From Actinomycetota bacterium (GTDB lineage: Bacteria > Actinomycetota > Acidimicrobiia > Spongiisociales > UBA5794): a stretch of 36,805 nt of DNA. The DNA lies in assembly GCA_013151445.1 (NCBI GenBank), contig JAADIG010000033.1, positions 1-36,805 of the forward strand. Direction: 5' to 3'. A program made the position numbers and the translations under genes. The notes beneath the pieces are model-generated. The model did not search any database and was not told where the DNA came from. It saw only the letters and a program-made list of their open reading frames with translations. This document shows positions 2,322-29,845 of the stretch, in pieces (the stretch's first letter is position 1; each line of letters opens with the position of its first letter).

Positions 2322-3914
2322 ATGCCAGTAACTGTCACAATGCCACAACTCGGTGAGACCGTAACCGAGGGCACCATTCTCTCGTGGGCGAAAGCAGCGG
2401 GCGATCAAATCGCGGAGGATGAAGTCCTCCTTGAGATCTCGACCGACAAGGTTGATACGGAGATTCCCTCGCCGGCCGCGGGAGTAGTCCAGGAGATCCT
2501 GGTTGCCGAAGGTGAAACTGTGGAGGTAGGTGCTGCCCTCGCCATCATCATCGAAGCGGGCGAAGCAGCGGCTCCTGTCCCAGGTGAGTCGGTCGTTGAG
2601 ACACCCGCCACGAGCGCTGCACCGGAAGCCCCGGCACCGGAAGCCCCGGCACCGGAAGCCCCGGCACCGGAAGCCCCGGCACCGGAGGGCGAAGGCGCCA
2701 CAACCGAGGCCGTCGCACCTCAAGGGGAGTCGGACCAGGTCAGCAGCGGCGGCGATGATTCTCGGCGCGGCAATCTTTCGCCGATCGTACGCAAACTCGC
2801 AGCCGAGCACTCGATTGATCTCGATTTAGTACCAGGTACTGGCGAGGGTGGTCGGATTACCCGCACGGATGTCATGCAGTTCGTTGCAGGATCGACATCC
2901 CAGCCCGAGCCGGCAGCGACGGACATCCCACAAGCCACGACAACACGTGTCACCTTTGAACCGGCGCCCGACGCTCCGGTGGCACCAACATCGTCGGCCG
3001 CGGGACCCGCTCCTGCCGCGGTACCAACGGCTCCGGCCCCTGTCGCGTCTGCACCTGTCAAGCCTGCTCCGGCGCCACCAACGGTTGCTCCGACAGCACC
3101 GGCTCCAACCCCCGCCCCTGCTCCTGCGGCCGCTGCACCCCCTGCGGCCGCTGCACCCCCTGCGGCCGCTGCTCCGACGCCAGCTCCAACGCCGGGGACC
3201 AGCGAGGTCCCGATTGGGAGACTGCGCAAGCGCATCGCGGCGAACATGGTCGCCGCAAAGGCAACTGCGGCTCATGTTTGGACGGTCATGGAGGTCGACT
3301 TCGAGCGGGTGGAGAGGGCCCGCTCGGCTCACAAGAGTGAGTTCAAGAACCGCGAGGGATTCAGCCTCACCTACCTGCCATTTATTTCTCGGGCGACGAT
3401 GGACGCACTTGCCGCCTTCCCCGTGGTCAACAGCGCATTCCATCTCGAAGAGGGCACGCAGGTGTTCAACGCCAACGTGAATCTTGGAATCGCCGTCGAC
3501 ATGAACCAAGAGGGTCTTGTCGTTGTCACCGTCAAGAACGCCGATAATCTCCGGCTCAAGGGATTGGCGCGTGACATCCGCTCGAAAGCCGTAAAGGCGC
3601 GCGACGGCAAGTTAGATCCCGACGACATCTCCGGCAGCACGTTCACTATCACTAACCCCGGCCCGTTCGGATCGTTCATGTCAGCACCGATCATCAACGT
3701 GCCGAACGTTGCGATTCTTTCCACCGATACGGTGACCAAACGAGCGACCGTAATTACCTTGCCGGACGGCTCGGACTCCATCGCGATCCACCACATTGGG
3801 ATGCTCGGCCTCACCTGGGACCATCGTGCGTTTGATGGCTCGACCGCTGTGAAGTTTCTTGGTCGGATCAAGAACAACCTCGAAACCTGGGATTGGGACC
3901 AGGAGCTGTCGTGA
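2322..3914 (+). CDS. sucB: dihydrolipoamide acyltransferase (E2) of a 2-oxo acid dehydrogenase complex
   Basis: A 530-residue E2 core enzyme that carries acyl groups on a swinging lipoyl arm and transfers them to CoA. One lipoyl domain spans residues 1-77 with the lipoylated Lys43 in STDKVDTEI. A Pro/Ala-rich linker holds four EAPAP units. The peripheral E1/E3-binding domain is at about 148-190 (NLSPIVRKLAAEHSIDL..VPGTGEGGRIT). A second long Ala/Pro linker leads to the catalytic domain (about 295-530) with the active-site motif DHRAFDG at 500-506. ATG 2322 follows AAGGAG. The gene lies after lpd and overlaps lipBA by GTGA, as expected for co-supply of lipoylation enzymes. Pyruvate, 2-oxoglutarate and branched-chain E2s are hard to separate by eye; in mycobacteria the E2 next to lipB-lipA is shared. 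The symbol is therefore provisional. Confidence 0.88.
   Translation: MPVTVTMPQLGETVTEGTILSWAKAAGDQIAEDEVLLEISTDKVDTEIPSPAAGVVQEILVAEGETVEVGAALAIIIEAGEAAAPVPGESVVETPATSAAPEAPAPEAPAPEAPAPEAPAPEGEGATTEAVAPQGESDQVSSGGDDSRRGNLSPIVRKLAAEHSIDLDLVPGTGEGGRITRTDVMQFVAGSTSQPEPAATDIPQATTTRVTFEPAPDAPVAPTSSAAGPAPAAVPTAPAPVASAPVKPAPAPPTVAPTAPAPTPAPAPAAAAPPAAAAPPAAAAPTPAPTPGTSEVPIGRLRKRIAANMVAAKATAAHVWTVMEVDFERVERARSAHKSEFKNREGFSLTYLPFISRATMDALAAFPVVNSAFHLEEGTQVFNANVNLGIAVDMNQEGLVVVTVKNADNLRLKGLARDIRSKAVKARDGKLDPDDISGSTFTITNPGPFGSFMSAPIINVPNVAILSTDTVTKRATVITLPDGSDSIAIHHIGMLGLTWDHRAFDGSTAVKFLGRIKNNLETWDWDQELS
2625..2684 (+). repeat. 15-bp tandem repeat, four units, in the E2 linker
   Basis: The unit GAAGCCCCGGCACCG occurs four times head to tail without a mismatch and encodes EAPAP each time. 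It lies in the flexible linker after the lipoyl domain. Perfect nucleotide identity, including synonymous positions, implies recent slippage expansion; copy number changes would keep the frame. Confidence 0.9.
3123..3176 (+). repeat. 18-bp tandem repeat, about three units, in the second E2 linker
   Basis: CCTGCGGCCGCTGCACCC is present twice exactly and a third time with changes in the last few bases. Each unit encodes PAAAAP, part of the mobile Ala/Pro linker between the subunit-binding and catalytic domains. Length variation would be in frame. Confidence 0.85.
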
Positions 3915-5578
3915 CCTCCGTGACGCCGGAGCATGCGGACCTTCTCCGGGTCCGGTGGCTAGGTCGTCTGCCATACGCCGAGGCCTGGGATCTGCAACGC
4001 GCCTTCTGGGAAGGACGTGCCACAGGGCGGTCGAATGATGACTACCTCCTCCTGCTCGAACATCCTCACACGTACACGGTCGGTCGCAACGGCGACGGTT
4101 CGAATCTGCTTGCCGGGCTCGATGACCTTGGAGCCATCGGCGCGGAGATCCACCACGTCGATCGCGGCGGTGACATCACCTACCACGGCCCGGGGCAGCT
4201 CGTTGGGTACCCCATTGGAGCGGTGAGACGACTTCCCCGCGGCTACGACATGGTTGGTCTGGTCAGGCTCATCGAAGACATGTTGATCGCCACCGTTGCG
4301 GAGTTCGGGATCGAAGCCTGGGCAGAAGAGGGTTTCACCGGGGTCTGGACACAACAGGGGAAGCTCGCAGCTATCGGGATACGCGTCGCCCGCGGCGTCT
4401 CCATGCACGGATTCGCCCTCAACGTCGACACGGACCTGTCGTTCTTCGAGCACATCGTGCCCTGCGGTATTGCGGATCGACCGGTGACGACCATGCGCGA
4501 TATCCTCGGACGGGACGTCTCGCTTGAAGAAGTCACCGAGGTGCTCCTGCGTCACGTCGACAAACTCTTTGCCAGCGCCGATGTCGAGACACAACTCGGT
4601 GCTTTTGCGCGTCGCTCGGGTAAACCGTTCGAAGTCGACGCCATGATCGCGAACGGTGTTTTCTCGCCCGCCAAACGCAACGAGATTCCGATCACGATTC
4701 GCGGTCTCCTCGCCGGCGAACCCGAACGGCCCGACTGGATGAAAGTCAAGGCGGACTTTGCATCCGAGGGGTATCGCGACATGAAGAAACTCATGCGTTC
4801 CGAGGGGCTGACAACGGTGTGTGAAGAGGCCGGGTGCCCGAACATCTACGAGTGCTGGACGTCCGGCACCGCGACACTGATGCTGCTCGGGGAGCGGTGC
4901 ACACGGGCATGTTCGTTCTGTGACGTACTCACCGGGAAACCCGGCGAGGTCGACTGGGACGAGCCGCGCCGTGCCGCCGAAGCAGTTGCCGCACTGAATC
5001 TTGACCACGCCGTTCTGACGTCAGTGAATCGAGACGACCTCGACGACGGCGGGTCCAGGGTGTTTGCCGAGACCATCGAACGCATCCATGAACTCCGTCC
5101 GCACTGTGATGTCGAGGTCCTCATCCCCGACTTCAAGGGAGACGAGGAGGCACTCAAAACGGTCATGAAGGCCAACCCGGCCGTCCTCAACCACAACACG
5201 GAAACAGTATTGCGGTTGCAGCGCGAGATTCGCACCGCGGCGAGTTACGGACGCAGCCTCGCTCTACTCGCCCGTGCGAAGTGGCTTAACCCGCTGGGAG
5301 CGGTCAAGTCGGGTCTTATCGTCGGGATGGGGGAGAGCGAATCCGAGGTCCTCGGTGCGTTGGCGGACCTGTGCGCCGTGGGAGTCGACATCATCACGAT
5401 CGGTCAGTACCTGCGGCCTTCTCCACGGCATCGGCGTATCGACCGCTACGTACATCCCGACGAGTTCGTTCGTTATCGCCGGGAGGGAGATCGGCTCGGC
5501 CTTCCACACGTCGAGGCCGGTCCGCTGGTGCGGTCCTCGTATCACGCGAAGGATGCCCACACCCAGGCCAAGGCCTAG
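3911..5578 (+). CDS. lipBA: LipB-LipA fusion: octanoyltransferase plus lipoyl synthase in one chain
   Basis: One uninterrupted 555-residue frame encodes both steps of lipoate synthesis. Residues about 1-225 are LipB (octanoyl-ACP:protein octanoyltransferase), with RGGDITYHGPGQ at 85-96 and the catalytic pair Lys151 (QGKLAAIGIR) and Cys185 (VPCGI). Residues about 260-555 are LipA, the radical-SAM enzyme inserting two sulfurs: the auxiliary cluster cysteines 304, 309 and 315 (CEEAGCPNIYEC), the SAM-cluster cysteines 330, 334 and 337 (CTRACSFC), NHNTETV, and the conserved C-terminal RSSYHA at 541-546. The start is GTG 3911, overlapping the E2 stop, with AGGAG five bases upstream. Usually these are two adjacent genes. 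Both halves keep their key residues, so a working bifunctional enzyme is expected. The E2 lipoyl domain encoded just upstream is an obvious substrate. Confidence 0.95.
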   Translation: MTSVTPEHADLLRVRWLGRLPYAEAWDLQRAFWEGRATGRSNDDYLLLLEHPHTYTVGRNGDGSNLLAGLDDLGAIGAEIHHVDRGGDITYHGPGQLVGYPIGAVRRLPRGYDMVGLVRLIEDMLIATVAEFGIEAWAEEGFTGVWTQQGKLAAIGIRVARGVSMHGFALNVDTDLSFFEHIVPCGIADRPVTTMRDILGRDVSLEEVTEVLLRHVDKLFASADVETQLGAFARRSGKPFEVDAMIANGVFSPAKRNEIPITIRGLLAGEPERPDWMKVKADFASEGYRDMKKLMRSEGLTTVCEEAGCPNIYECWTSGTATLMLLGERCTRACSFCDVLTGKPGEVDWDEPRRAAEAVAALNLDHAVLTSVNRDDLDDGGSRVFAETIERIHELRPHCDVEVLIPDFKGDEEALKTVMKANPAVLNHNTETVLRLQREIRTAASYGRSLALLARAKWLNPLGAVKSGLIVGMGESESEVLGALADLCAVGVDIITIGQYLRPSPRHRRIDRYVHPDEFVRYRREGDRLGLPHVEAGPLVRSSYHAKDAHTQAKA

Positions 5579-18955: not shown

Positions 18956-18975
18956 CTCGGATCGTGAGGAAACCT

Positions 18976-20337
18976 GTGCAGAATCACAATGACACGCGGC
19001 TACTTGTGATTGGCGGTGGCCCGGCTGGTCATTCGGCGGCCACCGTTGCCGCCACTATCGGAGCTCAGGTCACCGTTATCGAGGACAAGGTGATTGGCGG
19101 TGCCGCCCACCTATGGGACTGCATCCCTTCCAAGGCGATGGTGGCCAGCTCGATGCGGATTTCAGCGATCCGCAATGCGGGGCGTCTCGGAATTGACGAG
19201 GTTGGTCCGGTTCATCTCGACATGGGCGTTCTGTCTGCCCATCTCCACTCGATCTCGTCAAAGATTGAATCCAGCATGGTGGACCTGCTCGACTCCCAAG
19301 GGGTGGAGATGATTCGCGGGCACGGCCGCTTGACGGGTCTCAACACTGCGGTCGCCGAGACGGATGACGGCGACATCGAAATCGAGTTCGACAAGGTGCT
19401 GTTGTCTACTGGTTCGCGGCCCTGGGTACCGGATTGGGCCACCCCCGATGAGCGGATCTTTACGACCCGCGAGGTGTACTCGCTTCCCGAACTCCCCGAA
19501 CACGTTGTGGTGGTGGGCTCCGGGGTGACCGGGGTCGAGATGGTGCACATTTTCTCCAGTCTGGGTTCGAAGGTCACCCTGCTGGTCAGTCGACACCACG
19601 TACTGCCACATCGCGATGCCGAGGTCGCCATGGTCCTGGAAGACTCGTTTCTTGAGCGCGGGGTTGCGTTGCTCAAGGGCAGTCGTGCATCCGGCGTTGA
19701 AAGAACCGCAGGTGGAGTAGTGGTGCACACCGAGGACGGTCGATCGATCGAGGCATCGCACTGCCTTCTTGCCGTCGGGTCGGCACCAAACTCTGAGAAT
19801 CTTGGACTCGAGACGGCAGGCATTGAGACATCTCGTGGGTACATTCCCGTCAACGAGTACAACGTAACCAACGTTGCGCATATCTACGCCGCTGGCGATG
19901 TCTGCGGCGAACTCCCCCTTTCGTCGGTAGCGACCATGCAAGGGCGCAAAATCGCCCGACACCTGCTCGGTCACGATGTCGCACCTCTCGATTACCGCAA
20001 GGTGGCGCAAGCCATTTTCACCGAGCCGGAAATCGCATCGGTCGGTCTAGAAGAGGTTCACGCTGCAAGCGAGGGACGCAAGGTGCGGATCACCAAGGTT
20101 CCGCTTGCGGCCAATCCTCGGGCGCTGATCCAGGGTAACGCCCACGGTTTTGTGAAGGTGATTTCCGACCCGGCTACCCGGATCGTGCTCGGTGGAACGG
20201 TCGTTGGTCATCACGCCAGCGAGCTTATCGCTCCAATCGCCCTGGCAGTGACCGCACATCTCCGGGTTGATGTGCTGCTCGAAACCTTGATGGTGCATCC
20301 GTCTCTCGTGGAGAGCATTGCCGAAGCCGCCGAGTAG
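18976..20337 (+). CDS. FAD-dependent disulfide-reductase family protein lacking the first redox cysteine (LpdA/quinone reductase-like)
   Basis: A 453-residue flavoprotein with FAD motif GGGPAGHSAA (13-22), NAD(P) motif GSGVTGVEM, AAGDV FAD contact and a C-terminal dimerisation domain ending VHPSLVESIAEAAE. The redox-active segment reads GGAAHLWDCIPSK: the second cysteine remains (Cys49) but the first is Ala44, so the CXXXXC disulfide cannot form and dihydrolipoamide dehydrogenase activity is not expected. The C-terminal His-x4-Glu pair is retained. The mycobacterial LpdA protein (Rv3303c) is a family member with an altered redox site that reduces quinones; that is the closest analogy I know. 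GTG 18976 is preferred because AGGAAA lies five bases before it; GTG 18964 would add four residues. Confidence 0.85.
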   Translation: MQNHNDTRLLVIGGGPAGHSAATVAATIGAQVTVIEDKVIGGAAHLWDCIPSKAMVASSMRISAIRNAGRLGIDEVGPVHLDMGVLSAHLHSISSKIESSMVDLLDSQGVEMIRGHGRLTGLNTAVAETDDGDIEIEFDKVLLSTGSRPWVPDWATPDERIFTTREVYSLPELPEHVVVVGSGVTGVEMVHIFSSLGSKVTLLVSRHHVLPHRDAEVAMVLEDSFLERGVALLKGSRASGVERTAGGVVVHTEDGRSIEASHCLLAVGSAPNSENLGLETAGIETSRGYIPVNEYNVTNVAHIYAAGDVCGELPLSSVATMQGRKIARHLLGHDVAPLDYRKVAQAIFTEPEIASVGLEEVHAASEGRKVRITKVPLAANPRALIQGNAHGFVKVISDPATRIVLGGTVVGHHASELIAPIALAVTAHLRVDVLLETLMVHPSLVESIAEAAE

Positions 20338-20353: not shown

Positions 20354-20394
20354 CACTTTGTGTGTTGACGCTTTCCGTCACCTCTGTGTACTCT
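20354..20394 (+). promoter_or_regulatory. array promoter 1
   Basis: CACTTTGTGTG (a degenerate CACT-N3-AGTG, 20354-20364) directly abuts the -35 TTGACG (20365-20370); an 18-base spacer leads to the -10 TACTCT (20389-20394). The same layout precedes the other three units. An imperfect inverted repeat (CTCC...GGGAG) overlaps the expected transcription start. Confidence 0.75.
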
Positions 20395-20452
20395 CCGCAG
20401 TCGCGGGAGCGCGCTGCTTCCGGTGTTGTGATTGAAAAGGTAGGGAGCACCA

Positions 20453-21094
20453 ATGAGTGATGCGCGTAACGATGCGAGCGATCAGGTCGAAGCCGAGGGT
20501 TCTGGTCGTCGGGAGTTTTTGAAGAAGGCGGGGAAGATCGCGTTTGTGGTTCCCGCAATTCAGGTGTTGTCGATGACACCAGCCGGGGCGCAGTCGAATG
20601 GTTCGGTGGTGACGACGTCGATGCCACCGGGGTCGACGATGCCGCCGACAAGTACGACGTCCTCGACGACTTCCAGCACGACGTCTTCAACGACGAGTTC
20701 AACCACAACCAGTTCAACGACGACGACGACGGAAGTGCCGTGCAACGAAGTTCGCTACCGAGTCAAGGGCAACTTTTTGTCCGACGTGGTGACGTGGACG
20801 ACGGGTGTGGAATCCGGAGACTGCCTCACCGATCCGAGCGATTGGGATTCTGAAGCCATGGGCGATGCGGTCGGAGTGACCATCGATGCGACCATTACTG
20901 GTCCCGGAGTTGCGTCCCTGGTGCGCGTACGAGCGCCAGAGGGCTGCTGGTTCGACATTGTCGCCGGGAAACTCCTGAATCCGAGTTCCTCGCTGTGTCG
21001 GACGAATGAGAGCGGATCGGACTTTGTCGTTATGGCCGCGGGCGCCAACGGTGCAATCACCCAGGTCGAAGCGATCCTGGTCTGCTGCGAGTAG
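20453..21094 (+). CDS. Tat-exported six-cysteine protein, array copy 1 (intact)
   Basis: A 213-residue protein. Residues 1-18 are an acidic N-terminus. GRREFLKKAG (18-27) matches the twin-arginine consensus with Arg19-Arg20, followed by a hydrophobic stretch and PAGAQS (43-48), a likely signal peptidase site. A low-complexity Thr/Ser/Pro linker runs from about 50 to 93. The C-terminal domain (94-213) has six cysteines at 97, 124, 165, 182, 211 and 212, the last two almost at the end (VEAILVCCE), and shared motifs RYRVK, W-T-T-G-V, DCLTD and W-D. Tat export suggests folding, perhaps with cofactor or disulfides, before or during export. I do not recognise the domain. ATG 20453 follows TAGGGAG. 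This is the only copy with leader and domain in one frame. Confidence 0.88.
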   Translation: MSDARNDASDQVEAEGSGRREFLKKAGKIAFVVPAIQVLSMTPAGAQSNGSVVTTSMPPGSTMPPTSTTSSTTSSTTSSTTSSTTTSSTTTTTEVPCNEVRYRVKGNFLSDVVTWTTGVESGDCLTDPSDWDSEAMGDAVGVTIDATITGPGVASLVRVRAPEGCWFDIVAGKLLNPSSSLCRTNESGSDFVVMAAGANGAITQVEAILVCCE

Positions 21095-21226
21095 CAACTG
21101 CGCGGCGATCGGACCGTTCCTTCCCCGTAGTGCAGAGACCGTTGGTCGCGCTCGGAACTGACGGTGGGTCCGCGATATCAGAGTGCGTTGGCGGATCGAC
21201 GGCAAGAACGAGCCTCCAATAAGTAC

Positions 21227-21283
21227 CACTGTGAGTGTTGACGCTTTCGGTGGTCGGCTGGTACTGTCTCGCCGTCTGGCGAG
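21227..21283 (+). promoter_or_regulatory. array promoter 2 with start-site palindrome
   Basis: CACTGTGAGTG (21227-21237) abuts TTGACG (21238-21243); after 18 bases comes TACTGT (21262-21267). Immediately after the -10 lies the perfect palindrome CTCGCC-GTCT-GGCGAG (21268-21283), which would cover the transcription start and could serve as an operator or a 5'-end RNA hairpin. Confidence 0.75.
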
Positions 21284-21328
21284 AGGGCTTTCGTCTGGGC
21301 TCAAGATCAACAAAGGTAGGAAACACAT

Positions 21329-22008
21329 ATGGGTGATGGGTATCGCGACGTAGATGGTCAGCTTGATGGCCAAGTCGATGGTCAGGGTTCTGGGCGTCGG
21401 GAGTTTTTGAAAAAGGCGGGGAAGATCGCGTTCGTGGTTCCCGCAATCCAGTTCTTGTCAATGGCGCCTGCCGGAGCGCAGTCGAACGGTTCGGTGGTCT
21501 CCACGTCAATGCCACCACGATGCCGCCGACGAGCTCTACATCCAGTACGAGCTCGTCGACGACTTCAAGTAGCACGTCGTCCACCACATCTTCCACGACG
21601 AGTTCGACAACGTCATCTACCACATCTTCCACGACCACGACCACCGAGGCCCCCTGCGATGGCATCCGATATCGTGTTAAGGCCGTCTGGGATGCGGATC
21701 AAGGCGCTCTGGTGTGGACAACCGGCGTCGAGGATGATGACTGTATTACAGACTCGAGCCTGTGGGACTCTGAGGCTGTTGGCAGCGCAATTGGATTCAC
21801 TTTCAACGCTAACCAAACCAGTCCATCGGGTGTGGTTTCTGCGTTCATACGCGCACCCGAGGATTGCGAAATCGATCTCATGGGCATTACGTACCTGGAC
21901 AGGCCATGTCAGGTATTCACGATCGGCGGCCCGATCACGTCTTTCGCCAACGCCAACCCGCCGCTCGTTCAGTTTGAGGCAATAGTCGTCTGCTGTGACA
22001 CGGTCTAG
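21329..22008 (+). pseudogene. Tat-exported six-cysteine protein, array copy 2, frameshifted
   Basis: The leader frame from ATG 21329 encodes an acidic start with DGQ-type repeats (VDGQLDGQVDGQ), SGRREFLKKAGKIAFVV and PAGAQSNGSVVSTSMPP. Compared with copy 1, seven bases (GGGGTCG) are missing between 21516 and 21517. After that point the linker (TSSTSSTSSSTT) and the cysteine domain lie in the -1 frame, ending VVCCDTV at 22008. The domain keeps all six cysteines and the RYRVK, WTTGVE, DCITD and LWDSE motifs, with no internal stop. As read, the leader frame continues into an Arg/Pro-rich nonsense stretch to 21985. This is either a recently broken gene, a switched-off variant or a sequence error; conservation of both parts argues against old decay. 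Confidence 0.8.
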
Positions 22009-22106
22009 TTGGTTCGACAGCGGAAATAGTTCGGCTCCGTGCCTCGACCGGCCGCTCGAACTGGGGGTCACCGGAGCGGTGAATAGGTTCGTAACTCCAC
22101 TATTGC

Positions 22107-22163
22107 CACTGAGAGTGTTGACGTTTTCGGTGGTCGGCCAGTACTGTCTCGCCGTCTGGCGAG
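22107..22163 (+). promoter_or_regulatory. array promoter 3 with start-site palindrome
   Basis: CACTGAGAGTG (22107-22117), TTGACG (22118-22123), an 18-base spacer, TACTGT (22142-22147) and the palindrome CTCGCC-GTCT-GGCGAG (22148-22163) repeat the arrangement of promoter 2 almost base for base. Confidence 0.75.
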
Positions 22164-22208
22164 AGGGCGTTCGTCTGGACTCAAGATCAACAGAGGTAGG
22201 AAACACAC

Positions 22209-22855
22209 ATGGGTGGTGGGGTTCGTGACGTAGATGGTCAGCTTGATGGCCAAGTCGATGGTGAGGGTTCTGGGCGTCGGGAGTTTTTGAAGAAGGCGGG
22301 GAAGATCGCGTTTGTGGTTCCCGCGATTCAGGTGTTGTCGATGGCGCCAGCGGGGGCGCAGTCGATTCGGTGGTCTCCACGTCAATGCCACCGGGGTCGA
22401 CGATGCCACCGACATCTTCCACATCTACGTCGTCTACGACTTCGAGCACCACCTCGCCGACCACATCAAGTACGACCAGTTCGACGACGTCGACGACCGA
22501 GGCGCCATGTGAAGAGATACGCTACCGCGTCAAGGCCGATTGGGACTCCGATTCGGCTCAGATGGTTTGGTCCTCTGAAGTCCTCGCAGGTGACTGTTTG
22601 ACAGATACCAGTGCCTGGGACGAGGCCGTCCTCGGCGACGACCTTGTTGCGTTCGACATATCTGACAGCGATCGCAGCGGGGTCATCTCCGCCACGATAT
22701 CTCTTGCCGACGGTTGTAACTTCGAGTTCGTGCAGCAGCGGCGGTTTGGCGTTGTTACCTGTTCCGGCGGTCCGGTGACCGGGCCGTCAGCCTCGGTGGG
22801 TAACTTGGTACCGCGAATGGCTCATTTTGAGGCGATCATCGTCTGTTGCGAATAG
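22209..22855 (+). pseudogene. Tat-exported six-cysteine protein, array copy 3, frameshifted
   Basis: The leader from ATG 22209 encodes GGGVRDVDGQLDGQVDGEG, then the same SGRREFLKKAGKIAFVV and PAGAQS segment as its neighbours. Relative to copy 1 four bases (ATGG) are missing between 22365 and 22366, right after the AQS codons, so linker and domain continue in the -1 frame (VVSTSMPPGSTMPP onwards), open to 22855. The cysteine domain has the six conserved cysteines, RYRVKADWD, DCLTD, SAWDEA and the terminal AIIVCCE. No ribosome binding site precedes the downstream frame, so separate translation is unlikely. Status is as for copy 2, but the lesion is different in place and size. Confidence 0.8.
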
Positions 22856-22997
22856 TGGTCCGTCTGGCGCCGACGTGCCGAACCTCCGGTGGGATCGGTA
22901 CGCCTACGACGGCATGAGCACGGGTGGCTCCCGCAGCGAACGAGCGGCAATCCGACACAATCGCGGGAAAGACTGTTCCCTGGGTACCATCAATTGC

Positions 22998-23038
22998 CAC
23001 TGTAAGTGTTGACGTTTTGGGTAGTGGGCTGGTACTCT
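22998..23038 (+). promoter_or_regulatory. array promoter 4
   Basis: CACTGTAAGTG (22998-23008) abuts TTGACG (23009-23014); after 18 bases comes TACTCT (23033-23038). The palindrome of units 2 and 3 is not preserved, though CTCTC...GAGAG can still pair around the start site. Confidence 0.75.
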
Positions 23039-23098
23039 CCGTGGTCAGGCGAGAGGGCTTTCGTCTGGACTCAAGATCAATAAAGGTAGGGAGCAACA

Positions 23099-23768
23099 AT
23101 GGATGACGGGGTTCGTGACGTGGATGGCCAGGGTTCTGGCCGTCGGGAGTTTTTGAAGAAGGCGGGGAAGATCGCGTTTGTGGTTCCCGCGATTCAGGTG
23201 TTGTCGATGGCGCCAGCGGGGGCGCAGTCGAGGTTCGGTGGTGACGACGTCGATGCCACCGGGGTCGACGATGCCACCGACGAGTACGACCTCCACTTCC
23301 TCGACGAGTACGTCCTCGACGACATCGAGCACGACTCCACCAACGACGACGACCACCTCGTCGACGACCACGACCACCGAGGTTCCATGCGTTGAGACTC
23401 GCTACCGACTCAAGGCAGTGTGGGACGAGACCACCCGCGAGTTAACCTGGACAACCGGTGTTGGGCCGAACGACTGTTTGACCGATTCCAACACGTGGGA
23501 TGAAGAGGCTTTCGGGAACGACATTGGGGACATCGGGGTCAACATCGATTCACTCGACTTTGATTCCGATACCGGTGAACTGTTTGGCGCCCGTATCTGG
23601 ACCGGGGGCGAATGTTATCTCGACTTTGCCTCCGCCAAGGTTGGCTCTGAGTGCGTTATCTACAACCTCTTTGGGCCAATAACGATCTTCACCGACGTAA
23701 CAACCCCGGAGAACCCATCTATCTCCCAGTTTGAAGTTATCGCGGTGTGCTGCGAGCCACCCGAGTAG
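23099..23768 (+). pseudogene. Tat-exported six-cysteine protein, array copy 4, frameshifted
   Basis: ATG 23099 opens a shorter acidic N-terminus (MDDGVRDVDGQGSG, lacking the extra DGQ units) followed by the same twin-arginine segment and PAGAQS. Two bases (AT) are missing between 23231 and 23232 compared with copy 1, so linker and cysteine domain lie in the +1 frame, to the stop at 23768. The out-of-frame continuation of the leader ends at 23395. The domain is slightly longer than in the other copies, with RYRLKAVWD, WTTGV, DCLTD, TWDEEAFG, six conserved cysteines and the end IAVCCEPPE. Shift direction is opposite to copies 2 and 3, so one shared ribosomal frameshift rule cannot restore all three. 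Confidence 0.8.
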
Positions 23769-23793: not shown

Positions 23794-23824
23794 AGAAATG
23801 GGAGCCCAACGGGCTCCCATTTCT
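23794..23824. terminator. strong hairpin terminator between the array and the carboxylase operon
   Basis: AGAAATGGGAGCCC and GGGCTCCCATTTCT form a perfect 14-base stem around AAC. The T-rich flank on either strand (ATTTCTGTT rightward; ATTTCTCATTTCTG leftward) suits termination in both directions, as expected between convergent transcription units. A smaller CGGC-TTCG-GCCG hairpin with a UUCG-type loop sits just upstream (23771-23782). Confidence 0.8.
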
Positions 23825-23866: not shown

Positions 23867-25615
23867 CTATTTGATGATCATGATCACGCCACCCGCAGTG
23901 ACCGTGTCACCCGGTTGCACCCGCAGATCGACGATGGCTCCGTCGATGGGGGCCTTGATCTCGTTCTCCATCTTCATGGCTTCGAGGACGGCGATCGGCT
24001 CGCCAGTCTTGACAGTCTGCCCTGCTGAGTAGTGCACTTTCACGATCGTTCCCTGCATCGGTGCGGTGACGACACCGTCGCCGGTCGAGGGGCCAGCAGC
24101 ACGTCCGAGTTTTGGTGGACGGCGACGAGGAGCCGCCTTCTGCCCGGTCATCGATGAGGCGAACACCGGTGACCAGTAGGTGACACCGAATCGGCGTCCT
24201 CCCACTTCGACCGTCATAGTGCGCCGCTCCAATTCCTCGTCCTCGGGAACTGCGGCAGCCATCGGCTGGGGAATGTCAGTGAGGTCGACCTCGTTCTCGA
24301 CGAACGTCGTGTAGTGCGTTCCGGACCGGAACCTCTCCGTCTCTAGGAAGATGAGGTGTGCCGGTGTCGTTGTGGCAATACCGGTGATCACAAACTCGTT
24401 GAGGGCTCGTTTCCCGCGCTCGAGCGCCTCCTCCCGGTCGCGTCCCCAGACGATGAGCTTGGCGATCAGGTTGTCGTAATACTGCGAGATTGCCGAACCA
24501 GCGGTGACACCGGAGTCCACGCGAACTCCGAGACCTCCCGGCTCCTCATATCGCACGATGACGCCGGGTGTCGGAAGGAAGTTGCGCCCCGGATCTTCGG
24601 CATTGATTCTGAATTCGATCGAGTGTCCAAACGGCTCGTAGACGCTTTCGATGGAGAGAGCGTCACCGCGGGCAACACGGAGTTGCTCCTTCACGAGATC
24701 GACACCGGTGACCATCTCCGTGACACTGTGTTCGACCTGGATGCGGGTGTTCATCTCGAGGAAGTAGAACGTGCCATCTTCGTCGAGCAGAAACTCGATC
24801 GTTCCGGCGTTGACATACCCCGACGCCTTGCACAGCTTCATCGCCGCTTCACCGAGTGCGGTGCGTTGCTCGGCAGTGAAATTGGGTGCCGGGCTCTCTT
24901 CGATCAGCTTCTGGTGGCGGCGTTGCATCGAGCAGTCGCGGTCCCCGAGGAACACCGCGGTTCCGTGTGTATCGACGATCATCTGCGCTTCGATATGGCG
25001 GGGACGGTCGAGGTACCGTTCGACGTAGACATCGGGATTGGCGAACCAAGCATCGGCTTCGCGCCGGGCGCTCTCAAAGGCATCGTCGAGGTCGTCCATC
25101 GTTCGCACGACCTTGAGACCCTTGCCACCACCGCCATGAGCGGCCTTGATCGCGATGGGGAATCCGTGCTCCTGCACAAACGATCGCACGACGTCAACCG
25201 ACTCGACGGGGTCGGTCGTTCCCGGCACGCTGGGTACTCCGGCCGCTGTTGCTGCTTTGCGTGAGGCCACCTTGTCGCCCATGGTGGCGATCACCGACGG
25301 TGGGGGACCCACCCAGATGAAGCCGGCATCGATGACGGCCTGTGCAAATCCGGCGTTCTCCGCAAGAAACCCGTACCCGGGGTGGATCGCATCGGCCTTC
25401 GATTCCTTAGCCGCCTTCAGTACGTTCTCAACCTTGAGGTATGACTCCGCGGCGGGTGAGCCGCCTATGTAGTACGCCTCATCGGCGAGCTGGGTGTGGA
25501 TCGATTCGCGGTCGAGTTCCGAGTACACCGCAATCGTACGGAGCCCAAGCTCGCGCGCAGCCCGAATGACGCGCACGGCAATTTCGCCGCGGTTAGCAAT
25601 GAGTACCGATTTCAC
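23867..25615 (-). CDS. accA: acetyl/propionyl-CoA carboxylase alpha chain (biotin carboxylase plus biotin carrier)
   Basis: A 582-residue chain joining biotin carboxylase (about 1-450) and a C-terminal biotin carrier domain (about 510-582). It opens MKSVLIANRGEIAVRVIRAARELG, carries the ATP-grasp loop HGGGGKGLK and the catalytic EMNTRIQVEHSVTE segment, and ends with the biotinylation motif EAMKMEN in the last fifth. It carboxylates biotin with bicarbonate and ATP, and the beta chain passes the carboxyl group to the acyl-CoA. ATG 25615 has AGGATGG just upstream. The beta-chain gene lies upstream on the same strand with a 67-base gap, and the ligase that attaches biotin is divergent to that. 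Acyl-CoA preference is set mainly by the beta chain. Confidence 0.93.
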   Translation of the reverse strand: MKSVLIANRGEIAVRVIRAARELGLRTIAVYSELDRESIHTQLADEAYYIGGSPAAESYLKVENVLKAAKESKADAIHPGYGFLAENAGFAQAVIDAGFIWVGPPPSVIATMGDKVASRKAATAAGVPSVPGTTDPVESVDVVRSFVQEHGFPIAIKAAHGGGGKGLKVVRTMDDLDDAFESARREADAWFANPDVYVERYLDRPRHIEAQMIVDTHGTAVFLGDRDCSMQRRHQKLIEESPAPNFTAEQRTALGEAAMKLCKASGYVNAGTIEFLLDEDGTFYFLEMNTRIQVEHSVTEMVTGVDLVKEQLRVARGDALSIESVYEPFGHSIEFRINAEDPGRNFLPTPGVIVRYEEPGGLGVRVDSGVTAGSAISQYYDNLIAKLIVWGRDREEALERGKRALNEFVITGIATTTPAHLIFLETERFRSGTHYTTFVENEVDLTDIPQPMAAAVPEDEELERRTMTVEVGGRRFGVTYWSPVFASSMTGQKAAPRRRPPKLGRAAGPSTGDGVVTAPMQGTIVKVHYSAGQTVKTGEPIAVLEAMKMENEIKAPIDGAIVDLRVQPGDTVTAGGVIMIIK

Positions 25616-28756: not shown

Positions 28757-29845
28757 TCATGAACCTTGGCCGCGCTGCCGATCCTTGATCTGTGCACGAA
28801 CCCGTTTCGCAGCTTTCCTGGCCCGGAATGCGTCGGCCATCTCGGATTCTCGGAGACGGCCCCGTACTGAATCCTTGGGGCGCGCAATGGGAGCGCGTTT
28901 TGGTGGTTTCTTCACCGTCTTGGCAACCGACGACGTCTTGACGCGTTGACCGACCGAAGGCCCCTTTACCCGTTGGCGTCTTCCCAGTCCGGAAATTCCG
29001 GTCATGTCGGTGAGCCACTGGCCCAGGGTGCGTCGGCGTCCATACTGACTTCGTGAGACAACACCGCCGTTGCGGACGGCTCGGAAACGAGCACCAAACC
29101 CGGCCTGGTCGGGACGCAGGCTAATGAGTGCTCCACCCAACGCCACAACGAGTACGAACCCCAGGATCGGGAGAATTGGCGGATTGGAGCCCCCGTCGAC
29201 GGGGGCGGTCGGTCCCGCTGCGGTCGCGACCGTTGTTGGCACAACCACGAGCGGTTCGGTTGTCGTTGTCGTGGTCGGTGGCGGCACAGTCGTGGTCGGT
29301 GGCACGGTCGTGGTCGTCGTCGGTGGCATAGTCGTGGTCGTTGTGGTGGTTGTCGTCGGCGGTATGGTTGTGGTGATGACCGGCGGCCGAGTTGTGGTCG
29401 TTGTGGTCGTTGTGGTCGTGGTCGGTGGCGACGTAGTTGTTGTCGTGGTGGTTGTAATGACCTGGACACTCTGGGAGCAGGTGTCTGCGCCCGGTACTCC
29501 GATTTCAGCGAGCTGAATTGTGAAACTCCCTGGAGTCGCCGCAGCGGATGCCCCCACTGTCAGCGTCGTGTTCCAGGTGTCTGTCCCTGAACTCTTGGAG
29601 AGACTTGCGTTTACGCCTCCCGGCAACGAGCTCGTGATCTGAAGGCCGGCGGCACCGTCGTTCACGATCGTGTAGGTGCGGGCGCCACCGTTGCCCCCGG
29701 CCTCGACGGTGATGGTGCCACCGCAGTTGTTGATGATCGCCTCGGCGCTCGCATTCGCAATGACGCTGACCCCAATGAGGGTAATCGCAAGCGCCCGGAG
29801 CACTCGTACTCCAAGGCTGTGCCGTTGTGTTAGCACCCGTGTCAT
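28757..29845 (-). CDS. Thr-rich, membrane-anchored surface protein with Ig-like domain and basic tail
   Basis: A 362-residue envelope protein read from ATG 29845. Residues about 1-35 are a signal sequence (VLRALAITLIGVSVIANASA). Residues about 37-130 form a beta-rich, Ig-like domain with two cysteines (NNCGGTITVEAGGNGGARTYTIVN ... GADTCSQSVQV). A mucin-like tract of Thr and Pro runs over about 130-200. A membrane helix follows at about 225-247 (PILPILGFVLVVALGGALISL), then a strongly basic tail of about 115 residues (GRRRTLGQWLTDM, VKKPPKRAPIARPK). The order implies an extracellular domain on a Thr stalk, probably glycosylated if the cell has O-mannosylation, and a cytoplasmic or membrane-bound basic tail. 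It closes the polysaccharide operon and converges with the preceding gene, seven bases apart. Confidence 0.75.
   Translation of the reverse strand: MTRVLTQRHSLGVRVLRALAITLIGVSVIANASAEAIINNCGGTITVEAGGNGGARTYTIVNDGAAGLQITSSLPGGVNASLSKSSGTDTWNTTLTVGASAAATPGSFTIQLAEIGVPGADTCSQSVQVITTTTTTTTSPPTTTTTTTTTTTRPPVITTTIPPTTTTTTTTTMPPTTTTTVPPTTTVPPPTTTTTTEPLVVVPTTVATAAGPTAPVDGGSNPPILPILGFVLVVALGGALISLRPDQAGFGARFRAVRNGGVVSRSQYGRRRTLGQWLTDMTGISGLGRRQRVKGPSVGQRVKTSSVAKTVKKPPKRAPIARPKDSVRGRLRESEMADAFRARKAAKRVRAQIKDRQRGQGS

Follow-up and report, generated by a model that had tools for sequence, protein, structure and literature searches.

The window, a stretch of 36,805 nucleotides that constitutes contig C87 of a metagenome-like assembly (3.07 Mb, 159 contigs) from an uncultured actinobacterium, probably of the class Acidimicrobiia, carries four adjacent paralogous units at positions 20354-23768. 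With roughly even confidence, we interpret them as a lineage-specific array whose products are secreted, Tat-exported proteins, probably folded and with disulfide bonds, that share a fixed export module. Comparison within the window assigns to each unit its own promoter; the coding part then runs from an acidic N terminus through a twin-arginine leader and a Ser/Thr/Pro linker to a six-cysteine domain of about 120 (118-129) residues with a terminal CC. Unit 1 (20453-21094, plus strand, 213 aa) contains all of these protein segments, with a Ser/Thr linker. A sequence-only reading of the same DNA had claimed four neighbouring paralogues with a near-invariant twin-arginine segment followed by a Thr/Ser linker, and C-terminal domains that align over six common cysteines, RYR(V/L)K, DC(L/I)TD and a terminal CC; both descriptions hold. 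Additional array copies are absent from the rest of the 3.07-Mb genome. The array adjoins a flavoprotein gene upstream (18964-20337, NAD(P)H-quinone or lipoamide dehydrogenase type), and a biotin carboxylase gene (23867-25615), convergent with the array, lies beyond unit 4. Between the array and the latter gene is a symmetrical, terminator-like hairpin of 14 bp (23794-23824), listed without strand and reported on the minus strand in a search whose count is not above chance; the only two Rfam matches, both sub-threshold, fall on it. A few kb from the array, positions 28757-29845 encode a long, Thr-rich, secreted-looking and mucin-like protein with a C-terminal membrane segment. Elsewhere in the window, LipB-type (octanoyltransferase) and LipA-type (radical SAM) domains share one open frame of 561 codons (3893-5578), a possible LipB-LipA fusion.

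The six-cysteine domains are located on the plus strand at 20732-21091 (unit 1) and, including the stop codon, at 21646-22008 (unit 2, in a frame different from that of its leader), 22499-22855 (unit 3) and 23379-23768 (unit 4). The suggestion that the domain lies outside known families is supported by the curated-family scans: no match exceeds the curated cut-off in Pfam and NCBIfam (15 members) or in PHROGs (5 members), and the scans of these collections and of PADLOC returned low-complexity linker or chance matches only. A profile search of PDB sequences with the domain gave no match, and no paper on a six-cysteine family of this kind was found in the literature. Within the window the paralogous domains are 36-43% identical and near synonymous saturation (pS 0.69-0.85). 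The sole clear orthologous pair, unit 4 and the second copy of the sister genome G002, has a dN/dS of 0.13 and evolves under purifying selection.

An AlphaFold2 model of the unit 4 domain (mean pLDDT 88.8, pTM 0.83) predicts an eight-strand beta sandwich whose last strand ends in the CC motif, and the model of a distant family member (pLDDT 87.9, pTM 0.80) is similarly all-beta. Foldseek found no match with E < 0.001 among the solved and viral structures of PDB and BFVD. The best structure-comparison scores, with immunoglobulin, MATH/TRAF, TNF and resistin superfamilies considered, are Z 5.7 and 5.5 and indicate no functional relative; the Ig, MATH, TNF, resistin and SOR-like rows of VIA-align (Z 3-6) lie in the range of common beta arrangements. 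In a G070 paralogue both C79 and C124 (unit-4 numbering) are missing, and genus g12 has acquired both members of a further cysteine pair. Such coordinated loss and gain supports internal disulfides, with the pairing itself putative. The six-cysteine domains belong to a family not described before, with a fold predicted confidently and a narrow taxonomic range.

The domain profile matches 8 of the 50 genomes of the family, and the same 8 among 395 genomes of the class; close relatives are limited to one family of the class. Tandem arrays occur in three of its genera (4, 2, 3 and 3 copies). In the sister genome G002 (Bacterium BMS3Bbin02, BDTL01000114.1) the corresponding position holds two tandem copies, both intact and in frame. 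Genome G001 has a single domain directly after the stop of the flavoprotein gene (L040 5985-6373), without promoter or leader, and the leader was not found elsewhere in that genome. Genus g12 (G028, G013, G036 and G070) has one to three copies behind the same flavoprotein, with three intact tandem copies in G028. Behind the copies of this genus come a PqqD-family gene (in G028) and genes that read, from their sequence, as Tad-pilus-like. Loci L041 (10380-10718), L042, L043 and L070 of this genus place the Tat gene between the flavoprotein on one side and, on the other, genes resembling PqqD, a LuxR-type regulator and a Tad pilus operon (TadE/TadG, CpaB, CpaE, CpaF). Genome G010 also has three intact tandem copies, in a different genomic context: its locus L068 (6488-8440) holds three tandem, divergent Tat-leader genes that end in ISHVE(I/V)VICC, two of them 87% identical in the domain. 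Arrays beside the flavoprotein thus recur in related genomes, G010 being the exception, whereas the four-copy arrangement is not kept, with two copies in G002 and one leaderless copy in G001.

All units encode GRREFLKKAGKIAFVVPAIQVLSMAPAGA|QS or near variants thereof, comprising a twin-arginine motif, a moderately hydrophobic segment and AxA, and the genome encodes TatC of the Tat translocase (193.6 bits). By sequence, the leaders are twin-arginine signal peptides with an AGA|QS-type cleavage site, for which export and cleavage are predicted. The products end 1-4 residues past CC, with neither an LPXTG-type sorting signal nor a hydrophobic C-terminal tail; a sortase-anchored surface protein was rejected on this ground. 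Since no cell-wall or membrane anchor is visible, a surface location is a guess, and the products may simply be secreted.

The claim of one promoter per gene is confirmed, as a shared motif consisting of GTGTTGACG, a 17-nt spacer and GTACT precedes every unit, together with a Shine-Dalgarno-like GGTAGGRAR. The motif has 4 matches in the window (0 in 100 shuffles), all before array units, and a scan of the 3.07-Mb genome adds none to these 4. The unit 1 promoter region (20354-20447, plus strand) combines an imperfect CACT-N3-xGTG dyad, the -35 box TTGACG, a 17-nt spacer and a GTACTCTC -10 region, and its Shine-Dalgarno-like sequence is GGTAGGGAG. The promoters of the other units, likewise on the plus strand, are found at 21227-21265 (unit 2, a perfect CACTGTGAGTG dyad over the -35 box), 22107-22145 (unit 3, a perfect CACTGAGAGTG dyad) and 22998-23036 (unit 4, a CACTGTAAGTG dyad). 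In units 2-4 and both G002 copies the -35 box is partly covered, on its upstream side, by the dyad CACTNNNAGTG, which looks like an operator. A search for other regulon members in three genomes gave no perfect dyad-promoter outside the arrays.

The leader is conserved as DNA. An island of 91 nt (RREFLKK...AGAQS in unit 1; plus strand) is found at 20507-20597, 21395-21485, 22275-22365 and 23141-23231 in units 1-4, and also at L039 2462-2552. Among the paralogues of the window the leader segment is 89-100% identical; units 2 and 3 are about 90% identical across 260 nt of leader and promoter tract, and units 3 and 4 are 100% identical in the leader versus 51% in the domain. Between unit 4 and its G002 orthologue the leader is 98% identical, with a difference at only 1 of 23 synonymous sites, compared to 63% for the promoter and 85-86% for the domain. 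Of 1435 background windows of equal length, taken from three flanking genes, none reaches this level of conservation (minimum pS 0.155, median 0.61): adjacent genes are near synonymous saturation between species that share the frozen leader. Less-used codons such as TTT and TTG are retained in it. In other genera the synonymous divergence of leader and domain is similar, therefore the freeze is special to the genus of the window. RNA structure is unsupported as its cause (shuffle z -0.05 to -2.70, with structures that disagree between units), and within-genome concerted evolution by gene conversion was rejected as the sole cause, because unit 4 and G002 copy 2 are closer than most within-genome pairs. 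The freeze may result from selection on the leader DNA or RNA, or from recombination between species. A synonymous-site freeze confined to the signal-peptide segment is not well covered by any standard explanation.

A point underplayed in the first reading is that the array does not encode four intact proteins: only unit 1 has an intact single open frame (213 codons), and the leader and domain of units 2-4 lie in different frames. The leader frames, all on the plus strand, start at 21329 (unit 2, to 21516), 22209 (unit 3, to 22365) and 23099 (unit 4, to 23231). The breaks are located at 21516/21517, 22365/22366 and 23231/23232, with gaps of 7, 4 and 2 nt, respectively, relative to unit 1. Each of these units is broken once, no more than about 30 codons from where the leader ends, and reads openly on both sides of the break. 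The remaining window genes that can be compared with two sister genomes are all full-length and in frame, which makes random sequencing error unlikely. We note that the unit 3 and unit 4 breaks fall exactly where a 91-nt exact repeat stops (copies at 22275-22365 and 23141-23231), that the right side of the unit 4 break starts a 44-nt exact repeat shared with unit 1, and that a 27-nt match between units 2 and 3 stops at the unit 2 break. Had short reads been used, the assembly graph would branch at such repeat ends. The multi-copy opa genes are reported to pose this problem too, as short reads cannot resolve their copies (PMC13183285). As there is a single lesion per unit, and two of them fall at the end of the 91-nt exact repeat, the breaks are either recent or assembly joins, with assembly error slightly ahead. 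The break in unit 2 may nevertheless be real, because a short-read assembler should pass a 27-nt repeat, and the leaderless G001 copy, from an independent assembly, suggests real decay or switching. Repeats with a unit that is not a multiple of three are absent at the breaks; the repeat periods of the leader region are 3, 6, 9, 12, 15, 18 and 24 nt, and none of these repeats spans a break. Real breaks would point to a switching system without slippable repeats, and artefactual ones would be a clear warning on frame status read from repeat-rich metagenome assemblies.

According to our favoured interpretation, each protein would fold in the cytoplasm, pass through Tat and be cleaved, and its domain, displayed or released on the Ser/Thr/Pro-rich stalk, would act in binding or adhesion. 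The array would have grown by old duplications, the domains diverging under purifying selection and the 91-nt leader staying almost unchanged as DNA. Stalked binding domains, either secreted or kept at the surface, are the most economical reading, with a putative role in adhesion or recognition. Of the surface or secreted variant family proposed initially, the fixed leader, the divergent outer domain and the promoter of each unit stand, and the antigenic sense of "variant" is weakened by the dN/dS of 0.13 and by breaks without slippable repeats. Were the breaks real, the array might be an on/off repertoire with a logic like that of the Neisseria opa genes: units would be expressed singly, and gene conversion through the near-identical leader tract would break and repair their frames. 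A single unbroken unit beside three that are broken once each near the leader end, the homogenised leader and promoter tract (units 2/3 and units 3/4) and the leaderless copy in G001 are all consistent with it. We regard it as unlikely, however, since slippage cannot switch such frames, G002 has both of its copies in frame, an assembly graph would probably branch at two of the breaks, and the orthologous domain pair is under purifying selection. A stronger form, in which the frozen leader would double as export tag and recombination tract, with a single unit in frame at once and the others kept as intact out-of-frame reserves with their own promoters, is very doubtful. Pseudogene decay, in which units 2-4 and the G001 copy would be dead and on their way to loss, is also quite unlikely: the three broken frames and a G001 copy with no leader anywhere in its genome fit such decay, but several lesions per unit would be expected where exactly one and no other stop is found, the promoters and leaders of units 2-4 are intact, and unit 4 retains the low dN/dS against its orthologue.

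Two further readings concern the function of the domain. As structural subunits, beta domains would be cross-linked by their CC ends into a fibre or coat, analogous to Bacillus endospore appendages. The CC motif that closes the last strand, the several similar copies and a weak match to Ena1C (Z 3.6) could be cited for this assembly, which we hold to be improbable: a Z of 3.6 is noise, C79 and C124 were lost jointly, which speaks for an intradomain bond, and the Cys-Cys motif of Ena fibres sits at the N terminus, unlike the terminal CC of the array. A set of secreted toxins or effectors of the polymorphic-toxin type shares with the array a fixed export leader and a divergent C-terminal domain. 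It is highly improbable, since the spacers (200, 234 and 243 nt) contain the promoters and leave no room for an immunity gene, and no toxin or defence family is matched; the toxin-like role named among the initial suggestions is disfavoured by the same spacers, which lack immunity-like genes. Likewise, a polymorphic toxin or contact-dependent system was rejected, as no immunity gene follows the modules.

Several known systems resemble parts of the array. Known Tat substrates have the same RR motif, hydrophobic core and AxA site, but the leader DNA of the array is conserved at synonymous sites across species, exceeding the needs of the Tat motif. Same-style leaders with other outer domains are spread across the class: other Acidimicrobiia-type Tat-leader proteins (RRxxLKRGAxxGxxWATPVIQ) have a similar leader and Thr-rich linkers, and several end in SH(V/S)E(I/L)VxC, yet their outer domains differ and are barely detectable by the six-cysteine profile. 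The C-terminal Cys-rich domains of resistin and PCSK9, small disulfide-rich jelly rolls, rank first among the structural rows of the G028 domain (Z 5.5; rmsd 3.0 for 64 residues), with a partial overlap, no sequence similarity and a Z within chance for beta sandwiches. In pilE/pilS-type variation the silent copies are without promoter and 5' end, whereas every unit of the array has a promoter motif, a ribosome binding site and a start codon, and silent-cassette variation was rejected. The opa genes of Neisseria likewise exist in several copies with a conserved leader, diverse outer domains and a frame decided near the leader (PMC13183285). They are dispersed, whereas the array units are in tandem, and their frames switch by CTCTT pentanucleotide repeats, which the array lacks (PMC13183285); the array thus shares the pattern of copies, leader and domain, and opa-like slippage was rejected as its leader region has no non-triplet simple repeat.
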